Source of the DNA: Pseudactinotalea sp. HY158
Lineage (GTDB): Bacteria; Actinomycetota; Actinomycetes; Actinomycetales; Beutenbergiaceae
Reading direction: 5' to 3'
Assembly (NCBI RefSeq): GCF_009660225.1
Contig: NZ_CP045920.1
Coordinates: forward strand, 1,612,001-1,676,000
Length of the DNA stretch: 64,000 nt
The position numbers and the translations under genes were made by a program. A model generated the notes under the pieces. It searched no databases, was not told where the DNA came from, and saw nothing but the letters and a program-made list of their open reading frames with translations. Below, piece by piece: positions 2,400-13,763 of this stretch (its first letter is position 1; every line of letters starts with the position of its first letter).

Positions 2400-3869
2400 G
2401 TGATCACCGGTGAGTTGAAGAGCAGGATCGACCGCGTCTGGGACGCCTTCTGGTCGGGCGGCATCAGCAATCCGATCGAGGTGATCGAGCAGATCACCTA
2501 CCTCCTCTTCATCCGCCGACTCGACGACCTCCAGGTGCTCGCCGAGAAGAAGGCGCGGACCACCCGCGGCCCGATCGAGGATCCGGTGTTCCTACCGGGT
2601 CAGGAGCACCTGCGCTGGGGAAGGCTCAAGAACACGGCGCCCGGGGAGATGTTCGAGACGATCGACCGGCACGTGTTCCCGTTCCTGCGCTCCCTCGGGG
2701 GCCGGATCGGTGGCGACGGGTCGACCTACTCCGAGCACATGAAGGGTGCCCGGTTCACGATCCCGACCGCGGCGCTGCTCAGCCGCGTGGTCGACATGCT
2801 CGACGCCATCCCGATGGCCGATCGCGACACGAACGGCGACCTGTACGAGTACATGCTCGCCAAGATCGCGACGGCGGGCACGAACGGGCAGTTCCGCACG
2901 CCCCGCCACATCATCGACCTCATGGTGCGGATGACCGCGCCGGAGCCGGGGGACGAGATCTGTGATCCGGCCTGCGGCACGGCCGGGTTCCTCGTGGCGG
3001 CGAGCGAGTACGTGCGCGAGACCCACGCCGACGCGCTGCTCGATGCGACCCAGCGCGAGCACTTCCACCGGTCGATGTTCCACGGCTACGACTTCGACTC
3101 GACCATGCTGCGCATCGGCAGCATGAACATGCTCCTGCACGGCATCGAGTCGCCCGATATCCGCTATCGCGACTCCCTCTCGGAGGGGGCGAGTGAGGAC
3201 GCCGCCCGGTACAGTCTCATCCTCGCCAATCCGCCGTTCGCCGGCTCACTCGACTACGAGTCCACCGCGAAGGACCTGCAGCGGGTGGTGCGGACGAAGA
3301 AGACCGAGCTGCTCTTCCTCGCCCTGTTCCTCAAGCTGCTCGCGCCCGGCGGCCGGGCGGCCGTGATCGTGCCCGACGGCGTGCTCTTCGGCTCGAGCAA
3401 GGCGCACCGGGAGCTGCGCCGGATCCTCGTGGAGGAGCAGAAGCTCGACGCCGTGGTCAAGCTGCCCTCGGGCGTCTTCCGGCCCTATGCCGGGGTGTCG
3501 ACCGCGATCCTGTTCTTCACCCGGACCGACTCCGGCGGCACCGAGGACGTCTGGTTCTACGACGTGCGCGCCGACGGCTTCTCCCTCGACGACAAGCGCA
3601 ACCCGATCGAGGCGAACGACCTGCCCGACGTGCTCGCCCGCTGGCAGGACCGCACCGCCGAGCAGGGGCGGGGCCGCACCGATCAGTCGTTCCTCGTGCC
3701 CAAGGCCGAGATCGTCGAGCAGGGTTACGACCTCTCGATCAACCGCTACCAGGAGATCGAGTTCGAGCAGGTCGCCCACCGAGACCCGCTCGCGATCATC
3801 GCCGACATCGAGGAGCTCGAGACCGAGATCGCCCGGGGCCTCGACGACCTCAAGGCAATGCTCTCGTGA
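2400..3869 (+). CDS. hsdM: Type I restriction-modification DNA methyltransferase subunit
   Basis: A 489-residue HsdM, the adenine-N6 methyltransferase subunit of a type I restriction-modification complex (HsdR2M2S). The N-terminal all-helical HsdM_N domain (about 1-140) is followed by the N6 methyltransferase core. The core shows the SAM-binding motif DPACGTAGFL and the catalytic motif NPPF, the signature of N6-adenine MTases. The C-terminus (YDLSINRYQEIE) is also family-typical. The GTG start at 2400 is preferred because it gives the conserved N-terminus and lies 7 nt after a -10 hexamer. The stop overlaps the hsdS GTG by 4 nt (GTGA), so the two are translationally coupled. Confidence 0.95.
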   Translation: MITGELKSRIDRVWDAFWSGGISNPIEVIEQITYLLFIRRLDDLQVLAEKKARTTRGPIEDPVFLPGQEHLRWGRLKNTAPGEMFETIDRHVFPFLRSLGGRIGGDGSTYSEHMKGARFTIPTAALLSRVVDMLDAIPMADRDTNGDLYEYMLAKIATAGTNGQFRTPRHIIDLMVRMTAPEPGDEICDPACGTAGFLVAASEYVRETHADALLDATQREHFHRSMFHGYDFDSTMLRIGSMNMLLHGIESPDIRYRDSLSEGASEDAARYSLILANPPFAGSLDYESTAKDLQRVVRTKKTELLFLALFLKLLAPGGRAAVIVPDGVLFGSSKAHRELRRILVEEQKLDAVVKLPSGVFRPYAGVSTAILFFTRTDSGGTEDVWFYDVRADGFSLDDKRNPIEANDLPDVLARWQDRTAEQGRGRTDQSFLVPKAEIVEQGYDLSINRYQEIEFEQVAHRDPLAIIADIEELETEIARGLDDLKAMLS

Positions 3870-5005
3870 GAACAGCGATCCTGGGCGACGTTGCGACGAT
3901 CAATCCGCGGGGTGAGAAGGTTGAGGACGACGCGCCGGTCTCATTTGTTGGCATGGCGGAACTCGACCCGATCACAGCTCGTGCGCGCCCACTCGAGAGC
4001 CGACGGTTCCGCGATGTCTCCAGCGGGTACACGACTTTCCGTGACGGTGACATCCTTGCGGCGAAGATCACGCCGTGTTGGGAGAACGTCAAGATCGGCC
4101 AGGCGCAGCTTGATCATGCTGTCGGTGTCGGGTCGACCGAGTTCCATGTAGTGCGACCGTTGGAACGATTGCACGATCGTTACCTACTTCATTTTCTTCG
4201 GCAATCTCACGTGCGCGCCACCGGTGCGCTGAGGATGATTGGGAGCGGAGGGCAGCGGCGTGTTCCCGCCATCTTCTTGCGAGAGCTTCGCATCCCGCTG
4301 CCACCGCTGCCCGAGCAGCGCCGCATCGCCGCGATCCTCGATCACGCCGACGCCCTGCGAGCGAAACGACGACAAGTCCTCGCCCACCTCGACTCCCTCA
4401 CCCAGGCGATCTTCCACGACATGTTTTCATCGGTGAGAGACAGAATCGCCCTCGGTGAGCTCGCAGTATGGCGTAGTGGGGGGACTCCGACTCGAACAAG
4501 GCCAGAATTCTTCGAGGGGGACATTCCGTGGTACTCCTCGGGCGAATTGGGGTCTATGTACGTGGATGATTCGAAGGAGCACATCTCGGCCGAGGCGCTA
4601 TTAATGAGTTCGGCTAAGGCCATTCCTGCAGGCGCGATTCTTCTGGGAATGTATGACACGGCTGCCTTGAATTCCAGTATTGCAACAAGTCCGGGTGCAT
4701 GCAACCAGGCTGTAGCGTTTGCGATTGTTGATGACGGCGCAGCGCTGGCTGAATTTGTGTACTTTGCTGTGCAGGCTATCCGCCCACAGGTCAATAAGCG
4801 ACGACGCGGTGTTCGTCAAAAGAATTTGAATCTTTCAATGATTCGCCAGATTGAAATCCCGCGCGCGTCAATTGATGATCAACGAGAGTTTGCGGCGAGA
4901 GTAGAACAGTTGACCGAGCAACGTAAAGTCGTCGAGGTCGCTGAAGAGTGTTCAGACGAACTCTTCGCCTCCCTCCAGTCCCGAGCGTTCCGAGGAGAGC
5001 TGTGA
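3866..5005 (+). CDS. hsdS: Type I restriction-modification specificity subunit
   Basis: A 379-residue HsdS, which sets the bipartite DNA target of the methylase and nuclease complex. Two target-recognition domains are visible (about 1-145 and 190-345). Each is followed by a conserved coiled-coil spacer: LPPLPEQRRIAAILDHADAL then LDSLTQAIFHDMF, and DQREFAARVEQL then LFASLQSRAFRGEL. Base composition falls clearly inside the recognition domains, especially 4430-4950, where AT-rich third positions and a TTA leucine codon (in EALLMSS) appear. The spacers remain GC-rich. That mosaic suggests recognition domains acquired by exchange. The stop overlaps the next ATG by one base (TGATG). Confidence 0.93.
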   Translation: MRTAILGDVATINPRGEKVEDDAPVSFVGMAELDPITARARPLESRRFRDVSSGYTTFRDGDILAAKITPCWENVKIGQAQLDHAVGVGSTEFHVVRPLERLHDRYLLHFLRQSHVRATGALRMIGSGGQRRVPAIFLRELRIPLPPLPEQRRIAAILDHADALRAKRRQVLAHLDSLTQAIFHDMFSSVRDRIALGELAVWRSGGTPTRTRPEFFEGDIPWYSSGELGSMYVDDSKEHISAEALLMSSAKAIPAGAILLGMYDTAALNSSIATSPGACNQAVAFAIVDDGAALAEFVYFAVQAIRPQVNKRRRGVRQKNLNLSMIRQIEIPRASIDDQREFAARVEQLTEQRKVVEVAEECSDELFASLQSRAFRGEL

Positions 5006-5970
5006 TGCGCGCGCCCACCTGGGACCAGTACATGGCCCCGTCGCTGCGGGTGCTCGCCGGCGGTGAGGTGCACCGCGGGCGCGACATCGTGGCGGCCGCC
5101 GCCGATCTGCTCGACCTCTCGGGCGAGCACCGGGCCGTCGTCATCCCCTCCGGGCAGGAGCAGTACCGCAACCGCGGGAACTGGGCGCTCTCCTACCTCG
5201 CCCGCGCGGGCGCCGTCGAGCGCCCCGCCCGGGGCCACTACCGGATCACGGAGGTTGGGCGCAGGCTCCTCGCTGATCACCCCGGCGGGATCACCGAGCG
5301 GCACCTGCGGGCACTGTCGGGCGATCCGAACGCGCCGCACACGATCAAGGCGTTCCCGGCGGCCACGTCGGACGCGCTCCCGAGCAGCGCCCCGGGTCCG
5401 GGCGCGAGCGGGGCCCCGCGACCGCGCGCGGTGGCCGCGGTGGAGGAGTCGGCCCTCGACCCGGAGGAGCAGATCTCCTTCGGCGTCGCCCGGATCGACG
5501 AGGACGTCGCCGATCAGCTCCTCACCCGCATCTGGGCGCAGGAGCCGGTGTTCTTCGAGCAGGCGGTGCTCGACCTGCTCATGGCGATGGGCTACGGCGG
5601 TGCCGAGGGGGAGGCCACCCGCACACAGCTTTCGAATGACGTCGGTATCGACGGCATCATCGACCAGGATGCCCTCGGTCTCTCCCGGATCTATGTGCAG
5701 GCGAAGCGCTACGGCGCCGAGAACACGGTCGGCCGGGAGGCGATCCAGGCCTTCGTCGGCGCCCTGGCCGGGAACCAGGCCAACCAGGGTGTCTTCATCA
5801 CCACGAGTCGCTTCTCCCGCACGGCGATCGACTACGCCGGGTCGATCGCGACCCGCGTGATCCTCATCGACGGCGACCGGCTCGCCCGCCTCATGATCCG
5901 TTACGGCGTGGGGGTGCAGGTGAAACGGCGCATCGAGATCGTCGAGATCGACGAGGACTTCTTCGAATAG
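5005..5970 (+). CDS. mrr: Mrr-type (type IV) restriction endonuclease
   Basis: A 321-residue Mrr homologue, expected to cut DNA carrying foreign methylation. The N-terminal winged-helix Mrr_N region (about 1-105, with YRNRGNWALSYLARAGAVERP) is joined by a Pro/Ala-rich linker (about 115-150) to the Mrr_cat PD-(D/E)xK domain. Catalytic D216 lies in GIDGII and Q232-A-K234 in VQAKRY. QxK in place of ExK is normal for Mrr. The ATG at 5005 overlaps the hsdS stop, so it is translated with the type I system. An Mrr next to an adenine methylase must tolerate the resident HsdM mark. Family assignment is firm, but the target modification is unknown. Confidence 0.9.
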   Translation: MRAPTWDQYMAPSLRVLAGGEVHRGRDIVAAAADLLDLSGEHRAVVIPSGQEQYRNRGNWALSYLARAGAVERPARGHYRITEVGRRLLADHPGGITERHLRALSGDPNAPHTIKAFPAATSDALPSSAPGPGASGAPRPRAVAAVEESALDPEEQISFGVARIDEDVADQLLTRIWAQEPVFFEQAVLDLLMAMGYGGAEGEATRTQLSNDVGIDGIIDQDALGLSRIYVQAKRYGAENTVGREAIQAFVGALAGNQANQGVFITTSRFSRTAIDYAGSIATRVILIDGDRLARLMIRYGVGVQVKRRIEIVEIDEDFFE

Positions 5971-5985
5971 CCCCATCAGCTGCCA

Positions 5986-5999
5986 TATCGCCCCCGATA
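5986..5999. promoter_or_regulatory. Palindromic operator candidate at the mntA -35
   Basis: TATCG-CCCC-CGATA is a perfect 5-bp inverted repeat. Its left arm falls where the -35 would be, 17 nt before the -10 TACTGT (6009-6014). The next gene encodes an HTH domain, so autorepression at this site is a reasonable inference. Binding itself is not shown. Confidence 0.45.
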
Positions 6000-6008
6000 A
6001 CTCTCCGC

Positions 6009-6014
6009 TACTGT
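6009..6014 (+). promoter_or_regulatory. Leaderless-type -10 element before mntA
   Basis: TACTGT ends 7 nt before ATG 6022. It places a separate promoter for mntA-hepT-hsdR inside the 51-nt gap after mrr, and selects ATG 6022 over GTG 6013 or ATG 6016. Confidence 0.55.
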
Positions 6015-6021
6015 GATGGCC

Positions 6022-6465
6022 ATGAACATCCGGGCGGAGCGACTGGGGGCGGGGATGAGCCAATCCGAATTGGCGCGGGCCGCGCATGTGCCGCAGCCCA
6101 ATCTCTCCGCCTATGAGAACAATCGACGTTCCCCGAGCCCCGAAGTGCTCGACCGGATCCGGAGCGCGCTGCGCGCACGTCCGTCCGCCCGGATCGCCCA
6201 GCATCGGGAGGCGATCCTCGCCGCGGTCACCGCACATCACGGCACGGACCCCAGGATCTTCGGTTCGGTGAGCCGAGGGGAGGACATCGGTGGCTCCGAC
6301 CTGGACCTGCTCGTCACCTTCACGGACGAGGCCAGCCTCTTCGACGAGATCGGGCTCCGGCTCGCGCTGACCGACCTGCTCGGTGTCGAGGTCGATATCG
6401 TCGCCTCCGACACCCTCCGCGGCAGCTTCCGCGACCGGGTTCTGCGTGAATCGGTGCCCGTGTGA
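6022..6465 (+). CDS. mntA: HTH-nucleotidyltransferase antitoxin (XRE-MNT fusion, MntA-like)
   Basis: A 147-residue protein with two domains. An XRE-type helix-turn-helix (about 1-55: MSQSELARAAHVPQPNLSAY) is followed by a minimal nucleotidyltransferase carrying G81-S82 and D93-x-D95 in FGSVSRGEDIGGSDLDLLV. In characterised HEPN/MNT (type VII) pairs, MntA inactivates its HepT partner by adding AMP to a tyrosine. The extra HTH suggests it also controls its own promoter. A palindrome sits at the -35. The stop overlaps hepT by 4 nt. The XRE-MNT fusion is known in actinobacteria, but here it lies in front of hsdR, so it could act like a restriction-modification controller protein (inference). Confidence 0.82.
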   Translation: MNIRAERLGAGMSQSELARAAHVPQPNLSAYENNRRSPSPEVLDRIRSALRARPSARIAQHREAILAAVTAHHGTDPRIFGSVSRGEDIGGSDLDLLVTFTDEASLFDEIGLRLALTDLLGVEVDIVASDTLRGSFRDRVLRESVPV

Positions 6466-6812
6466 GGAGCGATGCGACGTTGGCGCGCGATGCCATCGAA
6501 GGAGTCCTCGCCGTCTGCGACACACTGGCCGAGCTGACCGAGATCGGCTACGAGGAGTTCGCCGCCGACGTCCGAAGTCAGTGGGCAGTGGAGATGGGCC
6601 TGATCCGGATCGGGGAGGGCGTCAACCGCGTCCCGCGGGCAGTGCTGGAGACGTTCGACGGCCAGCCGTGGCGCCTCATCGTCGCCATGCGCAACTTTGC
6701 GGCTCACCAATACGACGACCTCGATCCTCTGCGGGTCTGGCGCACGGTGACGAGCGACGTCCCGGTGCTGCGGACGTATCTGGCGGACGTGGTCCTGGTG
6801 GCGCTGGCATGA
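6462..6812 (+). CDS. hepT: HEPN-domain toxin (HepT-like ribonuclease)
   Basis: A 116-residue HEPN protein. The catalytic and modification motif R77-N78-FAA-H82-Q-Y84 (RX4HXY) is complete. R and H form the RNase site, and the tyrosine is the residue that MntA-type antitoxins AMPylate. The GTG at 6462 overlaps the mntA stop (GTGA). The stop overlaps the hsdR ATG (ATGA), so antitoxin, toxin and restriction subunit form one coupled translation unit. The likely role is growth arrest by RNA cleavage when MntA fails. Activity is inferred from the motif only. Confidence 0.85.
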   Translation: MRSDATLARDAIEGVLAVCDTLAELTEIGYEEFAADVRSQWAVEMGLIRIGEGVNRVPRAVLETFDGQPWRLIVAMRNFAAHQYDDLDPLRVWRTVTSDVPVLRTYLADVVLVALA

Positions 6813-9800
6813 GCAACTTCGAATTCGTCCGGATCACGATGCCCTCGATCCACGAGGACTGTGCCCGGGCCGAGTCCTACGTCGCCACCGACCCGCGCTC
6901 GGCGTGCTTCTATGCGCGCCGCGTGGTCGAGGAGGTCGCCGGCTACCTGTACGAGGTGCTCGAGCTGCCCGCCCCCTATCGCAACGACCTGGCGGCCCGG
7001 CTCGACGCCGCCGCGTTCAAGGCGTGCGTGCCACCGGCGATCACCCAAAAGCTCACCGCGATCCGCCGCATCGCCAACACGGCCGTGCACGACCAGCGAC
7101 GCATCGGCAAGGACGCCTCGCTCGCGGTGCTGCGCGAACTCTTCCACGTCGTCGTCTGGGCCTCCTACCACCACTCGCCGCGGCCCGACGCGGCGCCCCT
7201 GCGCGCCGCGTTCGACCCGGCACTCGCGCGACGCGCCGCCCCGCTCACGCGCGAGGAGGTGCTCGCCCTCGCCGCGAAGTTCACCGAGCAGGACGAGAAC
7301 CACGCCCGGGCGCTCGCCGAGAAGGACGACCTGCTCGCCGAGCGCGAGGCCCAGATCGCCGAGCTCCGCGCCCGGATCGCGGCCGCGCAGGCGGGCGCCG
7401 CCCCCGACGAACGCGACTACTCCGAGGCCGAGGCCCGCGTCGCGTTCATCGACGTGCTCCTACGCGAGTCCGGGTGGCCGCTCGAGAACGAACGCGACCG
7501 GGAGTACGAGGTCTCGGGCATGCCGAACGCCCAGGGGCGCGGCTACGTCGACTACGTGCTGTGGGGAGCGGACGGCCTGCCGCTCGCCCTCGTCGAGGCC
7601 AAGCGGACGTCGTCCTCACCCGAGATCGGCCAGCACCAGGCGAAGCTGTACGCCGACTGCCTCGAGCACCAGTTCGGACGGCGCCCGGTCATCTTCTGCT
7701 CCAACGGGTACGAGCACCGCATCTGGGACGATGCGGGCGGCTACCCGCCGCGCGAGGTCCAGGGCTTCTACACCGCAGGCGAACTGGAGCTGCTCATCCA
7801 GCGCCGACGCAGCCGACTCCCGCTCGCCACCGCCGCGATCGACACCGGCATCGTCGACCGCCCCTACCAGCAGCGGGCGATCAAGGCGGTCGCCGACGCG
7901 TTCGAGGGCAGGCAGCGTGAGGCGCTGCTCGTCATGGCCACCGGCTCGGGCAAGACCCGCACCACCATCGCGCTCGTCGATCTGCTCCAGCGGGCGAACT
8001 GGGCCAAACGGGTGCTCTTCCTCGCCGACCGCACCGCGCTCGTGAACCAGGCCGCGAACGCGTTCACGGCGCACCTGCCCGGATCGACCACCGTCAACCT
8101 CATGAACGAGAAGACGGCGGACGGGCGGGTGTACGTCTCCACCTACCCGACGATGATGAACCTCATCGACCGCATCGACGACGGCGAGCGGCGCTTCGGC
8201 CCCGGCTACTTCGACCTCATCGTGATCGACGAGGCACACCGTTCCGTCTACGCGAAGTACGGCGCGATCTTCGCCTATTTCGACTCCCTCCTCGTGGGCC
8301 TGACGGCCACGCCCAAGGACGAGGTGGACCACAACACCTACCGCCTGTTCCGGCTCGAGGACGGCGTGCCGACCGACGACTACCCTCTCCACGAGGCCGT
8401 CGCGGAGGGCTGGCTCGTTCCTCCCAAGGGGGTGAGCACCGGCACCCGGTTCCTGCGTTCGGGCATCGCCTACGACCAGCTCTCCGAGGAGGAGAAGGAC
8501 GAGTGGGACGCGCTCGACTGGGGCGAGGACGGACCGCCCGACGAGGTCGGAGCCGAGGAGCTCAACCGATTCCTCTTCAACGAGGACACGGTGGACAAGG
8601 TGCTCGGCGCGCTCATGGTCCATGGCTATAAGGTGGCCGGCGGCGACCGCCTCGGCAAGACGATCGTGTTCGCCAAGAACCAGCGACATGCGGAGTTCAT
8701 CGAGCAGCGCTTCAACGCCGCCTACCCCGAATTCGCGGGCCGGTTCGCGAGGGTGATCACCCATGCCGCGCCGTATGCCCAATCCCTCATCGACGCCTTC
8801 TCCGTCAAGGAGCAGGCGCCGCACCTCGCGATCAGCGTCGACATGCTCGACACCGGTATCGACGTGCCCGAGGTGGTCAACCTCGTGTTCTTCAAGGCCG
8901 TGCGCTCGAAGACCAAGTTCTGGCAGATGATCGGGCGCGGCACCCGCACCTGCCGCGACCTGTTCGGCCCCGGCGAGCACAAGCGGGACTTCCTCGTGTT
9001 CGACTTCTGCGGCAACCTCGAATTCTTCGGTCAGGACCTGCCCGGCTCCCAGGGGCAGGTGCGCACGTCCCTGACGCAGCGCCTGTTCGAGGCCCGCCTG
9101 GCGCTCGTGCGGGCGCTGGGGGAGGAGGACGGCGAGCTGCGCGCCGCGACGACCCACACGCTCCGGCAGATCGTGGCGGGCATGAACCCCGACAACTTCG
9201 TGGTCCGGCCGCACCGGCGGGCGGTCGAGCGCTTCGCCGCCGCGGACGCCTGGCGCGAGCTCACCGCCACGGACGGGCCCGACCTGCTCGCCCTGGCGGC
9301 GCTGCCCTCCTCGGTCCGGGACGACGACGAGGACGCCAAGCGGTTCGACCTGCTCATCCTGCGTCGTCAATCGGCGCAACTCGAGGGCGATGCCGTGACG
9401 GCCGAACGCGTGCGCGAGGCGGTCCAGGACATCGCGGCGGCGCTCCTGGCCAAGACCGCGATCCCGTCGGTCGCCGACCAGGCGGTGCTGCTCGAGGCCG
9501 TCGTCGGCGACGAGTGGTGGACGGGCGTGACGCTGCCGATGCTCGAGCTCGCGCGCGTGCGCATCCGCGGTCTCGCGGGCTTCATCGAGCGCGCCTCCCG
9601 GAGCCCCGTCTACACCGACGTCGAGGACGCGCTGGGTGAGTCGGTGGAGATCGACCTGCCGGGCACGACCCCGGGCACCGACTTCGAACGCTTCCGCGCC
9701 AAGGCCGAGGCCTACCTCCGGGGCCACCTCGACAACCTCACCCTGCAGCGGCTGCGCCGCAACAGGCAGCTCACACCGGGCGACCTGAGCGAGCTGGAGC

Positions 9801-10159
9801 GGCTGCTCGTGGCCGCGGGCGGGCGCACCGTCGACATCGCGTGGGCCAGGGATCAGGCCGACGGGCTCGGGCTGTTCGTGCGCTCCCTCGTGGGCCTGGA
9901 CCGGGCCGCGGTGGCGGAGGCGTTCGCGAGCTACCTCGACGGCGCCCGGTTCTCGATCGACCAGCTCCGCTTCGTCAACCTCATCGTCGACGAGCTCACC
10001 CGCAACGGGGTCATGGAGCCCGCCCGACTCTTCGAATCGCCGTATACCGATCACGCGCCGACCGGCCCGGACTACTTCTTCCCCGATGCGGACATCGACG
10101 TCATCGTCGCCACCCTGGACGAGGTTCGCAGGACCGCCGATCCACGGGAAGTGGCCTGA
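6809..10159 (+). CDS. hsdR: Type I restriction endonuclease and translocase subunit
   Basis: A 1116-residue HsdR. Domain order is as follows. An N-terminal DUF4145 (HEPN-superfamily) domain (about 1-135) has an R87-x6-H94 motif. A charged coiled coil (about 155-200) comes next. The PD-(D/E)xK nuclease has D248, E263 and K265 (VEAKR). A superfamily 2 motor follows, with Walker A ATGSGKT at 377-383, DEAH at 474-477, LTATPKD, and motif VI QMIGRGTRTC. The C-terminal EcoEI-type HsdM/S-docking domain includes the DLPGTTPGTDF segment. It cleaves unmethylated DNA after ATP-driven translocation. The ATG at 6809 overlaps the hepT stop, and upstream in-frame codons lie within hepT and are rejected. The length is normal for the EcoEI-like class with a DUF4145 head. 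Confidence 0.93.
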   Translation: MSNFEFVRITMPSIHEDCARAESYVATDPRSACFYARRVVEEVAGYLYEVLELPAPYRNDLAARLDAAAFKACVPPAITQKLTAIRRIANTAVHDQRRIGKDASLAVLRELFHVVVWASYHHSPRPDAAPLRAAFDPALARRAAPLTREEVLALAAKFTEQDENHARALAEKDDLLAEREAQIAELRARIAAAQAGAAPDERDYSEAEARVAFIDVLLRESGWPLENERDREYEVSGMPNAQGRGYVDYVLWGADGLPLALVEAKRTSSSPEIGQHQAKLYADCLEHQFGRRPVIFCSNGYEHRIWDDAGGYPPREVQGFYTAGELELLIQRRRSRLPLATAAIDTGIVDRPYQQRAIKAVADAFEGRQREALLVMATGSGKTRTTIALVDLLQRANWAKRVLFLADRTALVNQAANAFTAHLPGSTTVNLMNEKTADGRVYVSTYPTMMNLIDRIDDGERRFGPGYFDLIVIDEAHRSVYAKYGAIFAYFDSLLVGLTATPKDEVDHNTYRLFRLEDGVPTDDYPLHEAVAEGWLVPPKGVSTGTRFLRSGIAYDQLSEEEKDEWDALDWGEDGPPDEVGAEELNRFLFNEDTVDKVLGALMVHGYKVAGGDRLGKTIVFAKNQRHAEFIEQRFNAAYPEFAGRFARVITHAAPYAQSLIDAFSVKEQAPHLAISVDMLDTGIDVPEVVNLVFFKAVRSKTKFWQMIGRGTRTCRDLFGPGEHKRDFLVFDFCGNLEFFGQDLPGSQGQVRTSLTQRLFEARLALVRALGEEDGELRAATTHTLRQIVAGMNPDNFVVRPHRRAVERFAAADAWRELTATDGPDLLALAALPSSVRDDDEDAKRFDLLILRRQSAQLEGDAVTAERVREAVQDIAAALLAKTAIPSVADQAVLLEAVVGDEWWTGVTLPMLELARVRIRGLAGFIERASRSPVYTDVEDALGESVEIDLPGTTPGTDFERFRAKAEAYLRGHLDNLTLQRLRRNRQLTPGDLSELERLLVAAGGRTVDIAWARDQADGLGLFVRSLVGLDRAAVAEAFASYLDGARFSIDQLRFVNLIVDELTRNGVMEPARLFESPYTDHAPTGPDYFFPDADIDVIVATLDEVRRTADPREVA

Positions 10160-10565
10160 CGGGCGGCCGGTGAGGTGGCCGGAGGGGACCCGCGCGCAGG
10201 GGAGCGCTACGTGCGGGGGGTCAGTCCACGCATGAGTTCGACGAGCACGGGCATTCCCGAGGAAGGGTCAGGGCCACACCGACAGGATCCGAGGCTGAGG
10301 TCCGCCGCACGAGCTGTGCGAATGGCGTCGTCGACACTCGCGAACGGAAAGTGTGTCGCGAGATGCTTGCCGTCCCGGAGGAGCTTGTGTTTGGACATCA
10401 GCTCGTCCAGCTGTCGAGTCGAGTGTGCGGCGCGCGACTCGGAAACGTGCCAGTAGAGCCAGGTCTCGAACTTCAACCGCGTGACCAGCAGGTCGATGCC
10501 TTCGCGCTGGGCGGTCTCGATCGCCGACTTGAGCGTCGTATGGGTGTCGACGTCGACCAGGCACA

Positions 10566-10570
10566 CTGAA
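10566..10570. repeat. Target-site duplication, left copy
   Basis: CTGAA directly abuts the left inverted repeat of the IS and is repeated exactly at 12206-12210. It lies inside rloB. Confidence 0.8.
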
Positions 10571-10619
10571 CCTGGATCCACCGTGCTGGTTTGAGTCTGG
10601 GTGGCGTGGGCGCATGAGA

Positions 10620-10682
10620 ATGCCCTTCTGACCTGGGATAATGCGTGTTGTCAACGCACGCAGTCCCAAAAAAGAAGGGCAT
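10620..10682 (+). promoter_or_regulatory. Nested hairpin in the transposase leader
   Basis: ATGCCCTTCT (10620-10629) is perfectly complementary to AGAAGGGCAT (10673-10682). Inside lies a smaller TGCGT/ACGCA stem and a -10-like GATAAT (10637-10642). Read-through transcripts entering from outside would fold the whole structure just before the ATG at 10690, while transcripts from the internal -10 would not. This is a plausible guard against impinging transcription. The role is inferred. Confidence 0.4.
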
Positions 10683-10689
10683 CTCGTAG

Positions 10690-12069
10690 ATGCAACTATC
10701 TCATGTCTCCTCGGTACGGTTCGACGATCCGAATCTGGTCGGCGTGGCGGGTCTTGTCCCGGTGATGGCGCTGGCCGAGCGTGCCGGGCTGTCGGCGCTG
10801 GTCGGTGAGCATCTGAGTCTGTCGGGTGCGGGCAGCGCGAATCCCGGGGCGAAGGTGTTGGCGCTGGTCGCGGGCATGACGGCCGGGGCCGACTCCATCG
10901 ATGACATGGACCTGTTGCGCCACGGCGGGATGGGCAAATTGTTCCAGGATGCGCGTGCGCCCTCGACGCTGGGCACGTTCCTACGCGCGTTCACCTTCGG
11001 GCATGTCCGCCAGCTCGACGCGATCGCCTCCCGCTTCCTGACCCGCCTGGCCGGGCAGGCCCCGGTGCTGGCCGGTGCCGATCAGATCGCCTACGTCGAT
11101 ATCGACGACACGATCAAGGAGACCTACGGGTACGCCAAGCAGGGCGCCGGGTACGGCTACAACAAGGTCAAGGGCCTCAACGCGCTGATCGCGACCGTGG
11201 CCACCCCGGTGGCCGCCCCGGTGATCGTCGGCACGCGGCTACGCCGGGGCCCGGCCAACTCCGCGCGCGGGGCGGGCAAGTTCGTCGCCGACGCCCTCGC
11301 CACCGCCCGGACGGCCGGCGCCGGCGGGGTGGTGATCCTGCGCGCCGATTCGGCCTACTACAGCCGTGAGGTGGCCGCCGCGGCGGGCCGGGCCGGTGCC
11401 CACTTCTCGTTGACCGCGCGGATGAACCCGGCGATCACGGCCGCCATCACCAGCATCGACGAGCAAGCCTGGACCCCGATCCGGTACCCGAACGCGATCT
11501 GGGACGAAGACGAGGCCCGGCTGATCTCCGATGCCCAGGTCGCCGAGATCCCCTTCACCGCGTTCACCTCCCGTCCCAAGGCCGAGCACATCACGGCACG
11601 GCTGATCGTGCGCCGCGTCAAACGCCTCAACCCCGCAGCCACCAGGGCCGGGCAGGACGAACTGTTCGCCACCTACCGGTACCACGCCGTCTTCACCGAC
11701 TCGCCCCGGAGCATGCTCGAGGCCGAGAAGGCCCACCGCGCCCACGCGATCATCGAGGGCGTCCACGCCGATCTACGCGCCTCGGCCCTGGCCCACGCAC
11801 CCTCGGGCAAGTTCACCGCGAACGCGGCCTGGCTCGTTCTGGCCGCGATCGCGTTCAACCTCACCCGCGCCGCCGGGGCCCTGGCCTCCCTCTTCCACGC
11901 CCGGGCCACCACCGCGACCATCCGAGAACACCTCATCCGCATCCCCGCCCGGCTCGCCCGCTCGGCACGACGGCTGACCATGCACCTACCCCGGAACTGG
12001 GCCCACCAAGACCCCTGGGAAGCGCTCTATGTCGCTGCCTGCGGGCCACCCCCAGCCCCGAGGACCTGA
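10690..12069 (+). CDS. IS1380-family DDE transposase
   Basis: A 459-residue cut-and-paste transposase with an RNase H-like core. Acidic residues are placed as D137 (YVDIDDTIKE), D220 (ILRADSAYY) and E356 (HAIIEGVHADLR), and the YxxK-like GYGYNKVKG segment follows the first aspartate. It catalyses excision and integration of the flanking IS. It reads intact and is oriented opposite to the rloB gene it disrupts. The C-terminal 90 residues are Arg/Ala-rich, as usual for the family. Confidence 0.92.
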   Translation: MQLSHVSSVRFDDPNLVGVAGLVPVMALAERAGLSALVGEHLSLSGAGSANPGAKVLALVAGMTAGADSIDDMDLLRHGGMGKLFQDARAPSTLGTFLRAFTFGHVRQLDAIASRFLTRLAGQAPVLAGADQIAYVDIDDTIKETYGYAKQGAGYGYNKVKGLNALIATVATPVAAPVIVGTRLRRGPANSARGAGKFVADALATARTAGAGGVVILRADSAYYSREVAAAAGRAGAHFSLTARMNPAITAAITSIDEQAWTPIRYPNAIWDEDEARLISDAQVAEIPFTAFTSRPKAEHITARLIVRRVKRLNPAATRAGQDELFATYRYHAVFTDSPRSMLEAEKAHRAHAIIEGVHADLRASALAHAPSGKFTANAAWLVLAAIAFNLTRAAGALASLFHARATTATIREHLIRIPARLARSARRLTMHLPRNWAHQDPWEALYVAACGPPPAPRT

Positions 12070-12205
12070 CCACCGGCCCCCACGGGCACGACCGGAACAC
12101 AAGTGGAAACGCCGGGCAGACCGGCGGCCCCGCCATGCCCACACGACCCGACCCGCCAGAACCCGGACCTCACACCGTCACCACGACCCGGACGGTGGAT
12201 CCAGG

Positions 12206-12210
12206 CTGAA
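12206..12210. repeat. Target-site duplication, right copy
   Basis: CTGAA immediately follows the right inverted repeat and is identical to 10566-10570. Confidence 0.8.
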
Positions 12211-12446
12211 CAGTCGAACGGCTTCTGCCTCTTTCGCGCCTCGTCGCGGATTCGGATGCATTCCCGAACGACCTTGAGTGGATCCCTACCGATCCCGACC
12301 GCGGTGACCGACACCGAGATCGGTCCTCGGAGGAACTGCTGCAGCCGTTCGACGTACTCCTTCTCAGTCACCCGACCCTCGGTCACGACGAGGATCCGGC
12401 TACGTTCGGTCCGGAACGGCCGGCGCGGCCTGCGTCCACGTGCCAT

Positions 12447-13763
12447 TCAGGCGTCCTTGAACCGGATAAGCGCCGTGAGGACGCTCGGAGCGAGGCGGGG
12501 CGTGCCACCGTAGCGGCCGAGAAGATACCGCCGGGCGACGTTCGCACCCTTGTTCCGAGGGAAGTCTGCCAGGCAAGAGAGTTCGGTGGCACCGTCGCGT
12601 GTTTTCTCGGTGAACCACACCTGCTCCGGCTCGAGGTCGACCTGGCTGAGCGGGGAGAGAATATAGGTGTCATGGCTCGTGAACAGAAGCTGTGCCCCCT
12701 TCGTGTTGATCTCCGGGTCCGAGAACGCGCCCAGTAAGACGTCGACGAGGTGGGGATGCAGGCTCGAGTCGATCTCGTCCACGCAGAAGACGCCGCCGCG
12801 TCGCAGGATCTCGAGCGCCGGCACGATGATCGCGAGCCACGCGATCGTGCCGTCGCTCTCGTCGCCGATCGAGAACCGTCGCTGCTCGGAGGCAGTCCCC
12901 TGGTGCGTGAAGACGAGGCTCCGGACGACGGCGTCCGACTCGTCGTCCTCGAGTGCGTTGAGCGGCGCCGGCTCGTCGCCCTCGTCTTCACGAAGTCGCT
13001 GCGTTACCTCACGCAGGATCTCGCGCAAGGTCGCGGGCACCTCGTCCTCCTGTACATCCACGTCGACGACGCCGATGTCTGCGACCTGCAGCAACGAGAC
13101 GATCGTGTCGAACGTGACGTCTCGCTCCAGGAGGGACCGAGGGAGGGCTGCGAGGCGCCGCTCACGGTCCTCGTCCCTCACCGATAGCGAGTCGAAGGAC
13201 CGTACGAGATTACGGGCGATCGGGCCGAGCTGCGGGTGCTCGAGCAGAAGTGCACGGCTCAGCGCCAGTTCGCGTCGGGTGATCGCCCCGAGCGGGCGGA
13301 CTGAGCCATGAGTCCTGAGAGTTCCGTCGCCGGATACACGCTCGAGGAGGGTCCGCCACCGGGTCCCGGGGATGTCCCGGAGCCACTCGCGTACCACTCC
13401 GGTGTCGTCTACCTCGAAGCCGTATTCATGGCGTCGATCCGCATGCACGAAGTCGAGTCGGTATGTGCTCACCTTCTCGGGAGACTCGTCGTCGAGAGCG
13501 AACGGCACTCTCGGCATCGTGCGTGAAGCCTGCCAGATGGTTGCGGAGGAGTGGATCGCGGTGAATGTATACGTCAGGGCATCGAGGATCGCGGACTTGC
13601 CGGTGGCGTTCGCACCGAAGACCCCGGCGAGCGGATAGACATGGCTACGCCAGTCCTCACCCGCTCGCGGACGCAGCGTGCGCAGTGTCGGGCGTGTCAA
13701 GTCGATCGTCAGTTCGTCGCGGAGGCTACGGTGGTTCTGCACGGTGAAGCTGAGCAGCATCAT
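12447..13763 (-). CDS. rloA: RloA-type AAA/ABC-like ATPase
   Basis: A 438-residue AAA_15/AAA_21 (OLD- and SMC-like) ATPase. Walker A is GANATGKS near residue 55. A long insertion (about 90-280) contains helical and acidic stretches. Walker B is VDEIDSSLHPH, followed by the LLFTSHDTYIL switch. Proteins of this kind pair with RloB beside type I restriction genes and with AbiLii in lactococcal AbiL, and are presumed antiphage sensors. ATG 13763 lies 6 nt after a -10 TAGGAT and is chosen over ATG 13760. The gene is intact, but its partner rloB is broken by the IS, so the module is probably inactive or partial. The molecular trigger is unknown. Confidence 0.85.
   Translation of the reverse strand: MMLLSFTVQNHRSLRDELTIDLTRPTLRTLRPRAGEDWRSHVYPLAGVFGANATGKSAILDALTYTFTAIHSSATIWQASRTMPRVPFALDDESPEKVSTYRLDFVHADRRHEYGFEVDDTGVVREWLRDIPGTRWRTLLERVSGDGTLRTHGSVRPLGAITRRELALSRALLLEHPQLGPIARNLVRSFDSLSVRDEDRERRLAALPRSLLERDVTFDTIVSLLQVADIGVVDVDVQEDEVPATLREILREVTQRLREDEGDEPAPLNALEDDESDAVVRSLVFTHQGTASEQRRFSIGDESDGTIAWLAIIVPALEILRRGGVFCVDEIDSSLHPHLVDVLLGAFSDPEINTKGAQLLFTSHDTYILSPLSQVDLEPEQVWFTEKTRDGATELSCLADFPRNKGANVARRYLLGRYGGTPRLAPSVLTALIRFKDA

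Follow-up and report, generated by a model that had tools for sequence, protein, structure and literature searches.

In the type I restriction-modification (R-M) operon of Pseudactinotalea sp. HY158, a predicted type VII toxin-antitoxin (TA) pair, MntA/HepT, sits directly upstream of the nuclease gene hsdR, and its MntA antitoxin is fused to an XRE helix-turn-helix (HTH) domain. The operon lies in a 64,000-nucleotide stretch (the window) covering positions 1612001-1676000 of a 3.65-Mb single-contig genome. We read the pair, with a probability of roughly 0.75, as TA cargo in a slot that follows hsdS or mrr and precedes hsdR, with XRE-MntA autoregulating its own module and any tuning of hsdR being possible and incidental.

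The six genes, all on the plus strand, fall into two coupled sets, as the sequence-only reading of this DNA had described. In the first set, hsdM (2400-3869, GTG start; methyltransferase subunit) overlaps hsdS (3866-5005; specificity subunit) by 4 nt, and hsdS overlaps by 1 nt the accessory gene mrr (5005-5970), which encodes a Mrr-type (type IV-like) restriction endonuclease and is present in only part of the relatives' loci. A gap of 51 nt (5971-6021, plus strand) follows, a length that assumes an MntA start at ATG 6022 (GTG 6013 and ATG 6016 are alternatives). In the second set, the genes for XRE-MntA (6022-6465), the HEPN RNase toxin HepT (6462-6812) and the restriction/translocase subunit HsdR (6809-10159) overlap by 4 nt at both junctions. 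Clear Pfam domain calls were obtained for all six products: N6_Mtase (2.6e-65) and HsdM_N (3.4e-15) in HsdM, which also matched PADLOC MTase_I at 9.2e-195; Methylase_S in two stretches of HsdS (8.1e-19); Mrr_cat (6.1e-35) and Mrr_N (2.6e-24) in Mrr; HTH_3 (8.7e-13) and NTP_transf_2 (6e-8) in XRE-MntA; HepT-like (2.8e-20) in HepT; and ResIII (1.4e-37), EcoEI_R_C (4.6e-19), HSDR_N (8.4e-8) and DUF4145 (1.3e-8) in HsdR. HsdM carries the motif NPPF and HsdR carries EAK at residue 263 and DEAH at 474; HsdM, HsdS and HsdR thus occur in a single locus with intact motifs, as in a type I R-M system.

The pair belongs, by Pfam and by motifs, to the type VII (class I HEPN/MNT) systems. A PF01934 toxin gene adjoins a PF01909 antitoxin gene, the antitoxin gene comes first, MntA has a GSX10DXD motif at residue 81, and HepT has the RX4HXY motif as RNFAAHQY at residue 77. 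Toxicity and its neutralisation are predicted properties. The assignment does not extend to the NCBIfam equivalog label, since NF047752 and NF047751 scored 34.2 and 33.5 bits, under their curated cut-offs of 60; the match of XRE-MntA to NCBIfam MntA_antitoxin, at 1.8e-8, is below the family cut-off. In a PADLOC scan, the best match of MntA was the candidate family PDC-S09, followed by weaker matches to HTH proteins, and HepT gave no match.

We surveyed the position before hsdR in relatives of this HsdR. Among 347 genomes of the order, 19 matched at 1e-50 (the own genome included) and the 18 other loci were read; the best 80 named loci of a genome collection were added, giving, with the window and minus one duplicate (L117, identical to L064), 98 loci. 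We dropped 15 loci and kept the 83 that show hsdM, hsdS or mrr upstream of hsdR in the fetched DNA. The distance to hsdR was at most 250 bp in 28 of the 83 and longer in 55, window included, with the caveat that the hsdS genes have diverged and slot length was measured from where their tblastn match stops, which makes some values too large, and that five of the 55 long slots gave no open reading frame (ORF). Among the short versions, hsdS and hsdR lie 2 bp apart in L058, and mrr and hsdR 47 bp apart in Tsukamurella pseudospumae (L077) and 136 bp apart in L061. In a comparable locus of Janibacter anophelis (L076, HsdR 66% identical), the order is hsdM-hsdS-mrr-Fic-hsdR, with a 4-nt overlap of Fic and hsdR.

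The filled slots hold varied genes. Pfam families in the 80 slot ORFs of at least 75 amino acids (window left out) included DUF222 and HNH (six each), Fic (five), GmrSD_N and NTP_transf_2 (four each), and PIN and NucS_C (three each), among the 25 families listed of 62; PIN pairs and AbiEi were further cargo types. As a control we took 118 of 236 ORFs outside the same operons, in which none of the slot families named had two or more members among the 25 families listed of 189. By plain counts, defence and TA families seem more frequent in the slots than among the flanking ORFs. TA-type genes, a count that includes lone nucleotidyltransferase (NTase) or Fic genes, were found in at least 12 of the 55 filled slots (the window, L087, L098, L060, L083, L122, L059, L066, L094, L076, L121 and L139). 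Unrelated defence and TA genes exchange at the same position and empty versions exist; the position before hsdR is a slot for swap-in cargo in this HsdR lineage. Its being filled in 55 of the 83 sampled loci supports searching it for unknown defence genes.

Three kinds of slot content were observed alongside these counts. In L073, L096, L053 and L057, whose HsdR is 75-77% identical to that of the window, the slot holds one protein of 357-361 amino acids, fitted tightly between hsdS and hsdR; the L073 protein has a sub-threshold NucS_C match, and the protein is possibly an uncharacterised defence nuclease. The slot of L122, a cyanobacterial metagenome-assembled genome (MAG), at 7358-9876 contains more than one TA-like pair, with a GmrSD_N fragment, an opposite-strand pair resembling NTase and ribbon-helix-helix genes, and a Phd/YoeB pair. 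The slots of L063, L065 and L066 carry large opposite-strand ORFs, by eye among the DUF222/HNH matches, which look like mobile inserts.

MNT genes inside type I operons recur. With hidden Markov models (HMMs), a minimal nucleotidyltransferase (MNT)-type domain was found between hsdM and hsdR in seven of 99 loci: the window, L060, L083, L087, L098, L122 (on the opposite strand) and L132, where it lies between hsdM and hsdS. A bacterial MAG (L087) has hsdM-hsdS, an 82-amino-acid ORF, MntA-HepT and then hsdR, with hepT ending 57 nt before hsdR; in Candidatus Thiosymbion (L098) a slot MntA is present and HepT was not found by HMM; and L202, whose HsdR is of a different type, has the order hsdM-mntA-hepT-hsdS-hsdR. 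Both L087 and L202 have the GSX10DXD and RX4HXY motifs, and both have MntA without XRE. The sequence-only reading had placed an MntA/HepT pair inside a type I operon and coupled it to hsdR, and had named recurrence of the arrangement in related loci as a check. The pair is there with intact motifs and does recur, in XRE-less form only, given that these two MntA proteins lack XRE and that the exact order appears in no other locus examined. We set aside a 146-amino-acid ORF that follows a winged-HTH NTase gene in L060; it looks HEPN-like by eye, had no Pfam match and was not counted as HEPN.

To place the XRE domain, we turned to its occurrence elsewhere. A search of 396 genomes from the phylum at 1e-8 found relatives of XRE-MntA in 53, many of them matching the MNT half only. 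We read 12 other XRE-MNT loci with 7-18 kb around them (L072, L191-L199, L201 and L204), where the DNA starts next to the XRE-MNT gene in L201 and stops next to it in L204, each time at the edge of a contig, and no HsdM, HsdS, HsdR or Mrr was detected by HMM in the DNA around any of the 12; the HMMs were built from operons of this HsdR lineage and still detect hsdM and hsdS of the distant L202. HepT adjoins XRE-MNT in eight of these 12 loci, with a weak match in L198. Five further XRE-MNT genes (L013, L018, L020, L160 and L169) had no type I genes within flanks of at most 1.5 kb. Since XRE-MNT stands at 12 loci that show no type I genes in the DNA read, the XRE domain most likely serves as the TA module's own autoregulator, replacing the autorepression known for an XRE-less MntA of Shewanella, and its effect on hsdR, if any, would stem from operon position. 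Among mobile sequences, 1468 plasmid records matched the XRE-MntA protein, two of them over at least 80% of its length, and 18 of the 20 plasmid matches listed cover the MNT half only; among viral contigs, 38 stretches matched the search pattern and none encodes an XRE-MntA relative. The own genome has two further modules, a second MNT-HepT pair without XRE (L071, about 878.3-879.1 kb) and a second XRE-MNT gene (L198, about 2.639 Mb) with a weak HepT match beside it; the stretches fetched around these two show no type I genes.

The sequence-only reading had proposed another task for XRE-MntA, that of controlling the nuclease alone. Like a type II C protein, it would hold back a dedicated mntA-hepT-hsdR promoter, by repression or delay, to let methylation come before restriction, and loss of the locus would be punished by HepT. 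The 51-nt gap, which holds a genome-unique palindrome where a promoter could sit, and the 4-nt couplings through to hsdR fit this scheme. There is precedent as well: in Streptococcus suis, loss of the Xre antitoxin of an MNT toxin is reported to change the expression of a co-operonic downstream gene (PMC8406773), and the repressor RptR acts on an island of type I and DarTG2 genes (PMC12255303). Against it, a C protein is a regulator dedicated to its R-M locus, and XRE-MNT occurs elsewhere in fetched stretches where no type I gene was detected, as above; the slot MntA of L087 and the MntA of L202 have no XRE; the L087 hepT stands 57 nt from hsdR; and 28 of 83 slots measure at most 250 bp.

The coupling itself is not specific. 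An ORF was called in 50 filled slots. The one closest to hsdR shares 4 nt with it in seven (the window, L060, L076, L113, L115, L121 and L131, in L131 only with a TTG start of hsdR), stops at most 60 nt short of it in 13 and does neither in 30. The six cargos outside the window are three Fic proteins, a PLD, a UPF0175 and a GmrSD protein; as six unrelated cargos share the same overlap, a close junction with hsdR does not in itself point to TA control. Read-through from hsdM to hsdR is also possible. We therefore regard the controller scheme as unlikely; side control of hsdR by TA autoregulation is possible, and control of hsdR alone, though possible, is unsupported.

The gap had also been credited with its own -10 element and a palindrome. 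The palindrome, TATCGCCCCCGATA (5986-5999), with arms TATCG and CGATA of 5 bp each around CCCC, is a reasonable operator candidate for XRE-MntA and the motif TATCGN4CGATA has a single exact copy in the 3.65-Mb genome, with no second copy, for example near hsdM. As a palindrome it is not above chance: of 5000 mononucleotide shuffles of the gap, 21% had arms of at least 5 bp with a spacer of up to 12, as did 61% of 3000 random 51-mers from the window, which is more GC-rich than the gap. The shuffles took the place of an inverted-repeat search whose 6-base seed had passed over the 5+5 palindrome. Relaxing the motif to two mismatches gave 12 window matches vs 11.97 expected, so no operator family can be read from it. 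As for the -10, TACTGT (6009-6014, plus strand), 7 nt ahead of ATG 6022, could by eye fit a leaderless actinobacterial transcript starting near that ATG. The promoter in the gap, a candidate for mntA-hepT-hsdR, is unproven.

Several observations weigh against our reading of the pair as autoregulated slot cargo. A scan of 5850-6150 found no sigma-70-type promoter and no terminator, other promoter types being outside the scan. The order XRE-MntA-HepT-hsdR was found in the window only, among all loci examined, and tblastn at 1e-3 found MntA or HepT in none of the 18 relatives' hsdR loci, HMMs finding an MNT domain in L060. Within flanks of up to 1.5 kb, type I genes accompany one of 59 other MNT/HepT loci, namely L028, which coincides with L202, so the link of MNT/HepT to type I systems is occasional; HepT-like genes, present in 119 of the 347 genomes, are common across the order, and the neighbourhoods read are those of the fetched loci. 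The control ORFs, too, hold defence- or TA-like families, namely HipA_C, AAA_21, Peptidase_M78 and N6_Mtase, with two members each.

Alternatively, the pair could be a selfish mobile module whose co-location with the R-M genes means nothing. This account fits the anatomy of our preferred reading and is at odds with its defence role. MNT-HEPN modules were described in 2009 as inserted in unrelated operons, for example that of lysine biosynthesis in one Thermus strain (PMC2701414), and both further modules of the own genome lie away from type I genes. The setting points the same way. The R-M/TA/Rlo region is flanked by tRNA-Val(CAC) (2191-2264) and thrS (ORF from 13903); in one relative (G608, locus L203) the thrS match starts 178 nt past the same tRNA, with no R-M genes found by HMM, which fits acquisition of an island without proving it. 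The adjacency was seen in one of seven relatives (pabC region, 1.5-kb flanks) and was not visible in that stretch in the other six, and we found no convincing att-like pair of direct repeats at the region's ends. What speaks against mere hitch-hiking is the content of the slot, which by plain counts looks richer in defence and TA families than the flanking ORFs, together with the MNT-type domains in seven of 99 loci. We consider this explanation possible and rather doubtful.

Downstream of hsdR, at 10207-13763, we noticed a minus-strand AAA ATPase gene (12447-13763) and an rloB-like gene. The latter appears to be in two parts, 12027-12446 (under the Pfam cut-off) and 10207-10581, which flank a DDE transposase ORF (10690-12069).

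The N-terminus of HsdR raises a further possibility. It is a HEPN-like DUF4145 domain by Pfam, which a survey of such domains (PMC3710099) lists as a HEPN family joined to helicase and restriction endonuclease modules, and its residues N90, A92 and H94 are invariant in 15 of 15 aligned HsdR. The R-M complex, possibly through this domain, might help to silence HepT, so that phage anti-restriction would free the RNase, in the manner of PrrC, whose silencing by its R-M complex (PMC3874165, PMC3710099) is the precedent; the same survey proposed in 2013, by analogy with PrrC, that R-M-linked HEPN toxins form a multi-pronged defence. Against this stands that HepT has an MNT antitoxin of its own, whereas for PrrC the R-M enzyme does the silencing. 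The conserved residues occur also in HsdR of the empty-slot loci L058 and L061 of the 15-row alignment, and the domain is therefore not specific to loci with HepT; none of the 15 has a tyrosine at H+2. Such guarding, which is compatible with our preferred reading, seems very unlikely. The missing tyrosine bears on another candidate, that MntA acts on DUF4145, which we set aside; the domain is not an obvious MntA substrate.

Under the preferred reading, a type I operon with accessory mrr would have received a type VII module in the slot before hsdR. XRE-MntA would use its MNT domain to adenylylate the tyrosine in the RX4HXY motif of HepT and hold the HEPN RNase inactive, and its XRE domain would repress a small promoter in the 51-nt gap, as expected for the free-standing XRE-MntA copies. 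As hsdR is predicted to be translationally coupled behind hepT, it would be expressed when the hsdM transcript reads through, with some contribution from the TA promoter. The pair may stabilise the locus against loss, and it may act as a second, RNA-directed defence when the supply of MntA fails or the R-M system is disabled. If the TA promoter drives part of hsdR, the locus would be a simple case of antitoxin autoregulation tuning a restriction nuclease. A bolder variant makes XRE-MntA a two-headed sensor, its MNT half silencing HepT by adenylylation and its XRE half repressing one mntA-hepT-hsdR promoter; phage shut-off would deplete MntA, unmask the RNase and boost the restriction subunit together, with methylation unchanged. 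If true, one antitoxin would gear restriction strength and suicide together; we think this quite improbable.

The literature search returned no XRE-fused MntA, and no MntA/HepT before hsdR, in titles or abstract starts; the combination is unmet there, and its parts are known and stand in a known arrangement. The class I HepT/MntA of Shewanella oneidensis shares the RX4HXY toxin, the GSX10DXD antitoxin and the order with mntA first and overlapping hepT. There, MntA adenylylates HepT (PMC7641770) and binds and represses its own promoter (PMC4621449); unlike the window's XRE fusion, which is followed by hsdR, it has no predicted DNA-binding domain. C-protein R-M systems resemble the window in having an HTH regulator near the R gene, but C proteins, as their description in PMC12707154 has it, are dedicated to R-M, whereas the HTH here is part of a TA antitoxin found also away from R-M. 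EcoprrI/PrrC likewise embeds a HEPN-type RNase gene in a type I operon; PrrC, however, an anticodon nuclease of the ABC-ATPase/HEPN type, is kept silent by the R-M complex itself, whereas the window's RNase has its own MNT antitoxin. In the HEPN survey (PMC3710099), the tabulated entry for the HepT family (DUF86) makes no mention of R-M operons. Another close likeness is the RRDM island of E. coli E2348/69, in which DarTG2 lies between hsdS and hsdR of a type I system under the repressor RptR (PMC12255303). As in the window, a TA pair is inserted between hsdS and hsdR; the differences are that DarT is an ADP-ribosyltransferase acting on DNA where the window's toxin is HepT, that regulation lies with a separate gene, the first of the island, which acts on all of it, and that no mrr is among the seven ORFs listed. 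Because a TA pair within a type I operon had thus been published, the locus is not the distinct composite defence design proposed from its sequence; with varied defence and toxin genes in the same slot of its relatives, it is a further example of a known arrangement, and with MntA/HepT, here in a form fused to a DNA-binding domain, it lengthens the list of toxins that type I restriction operons carry.

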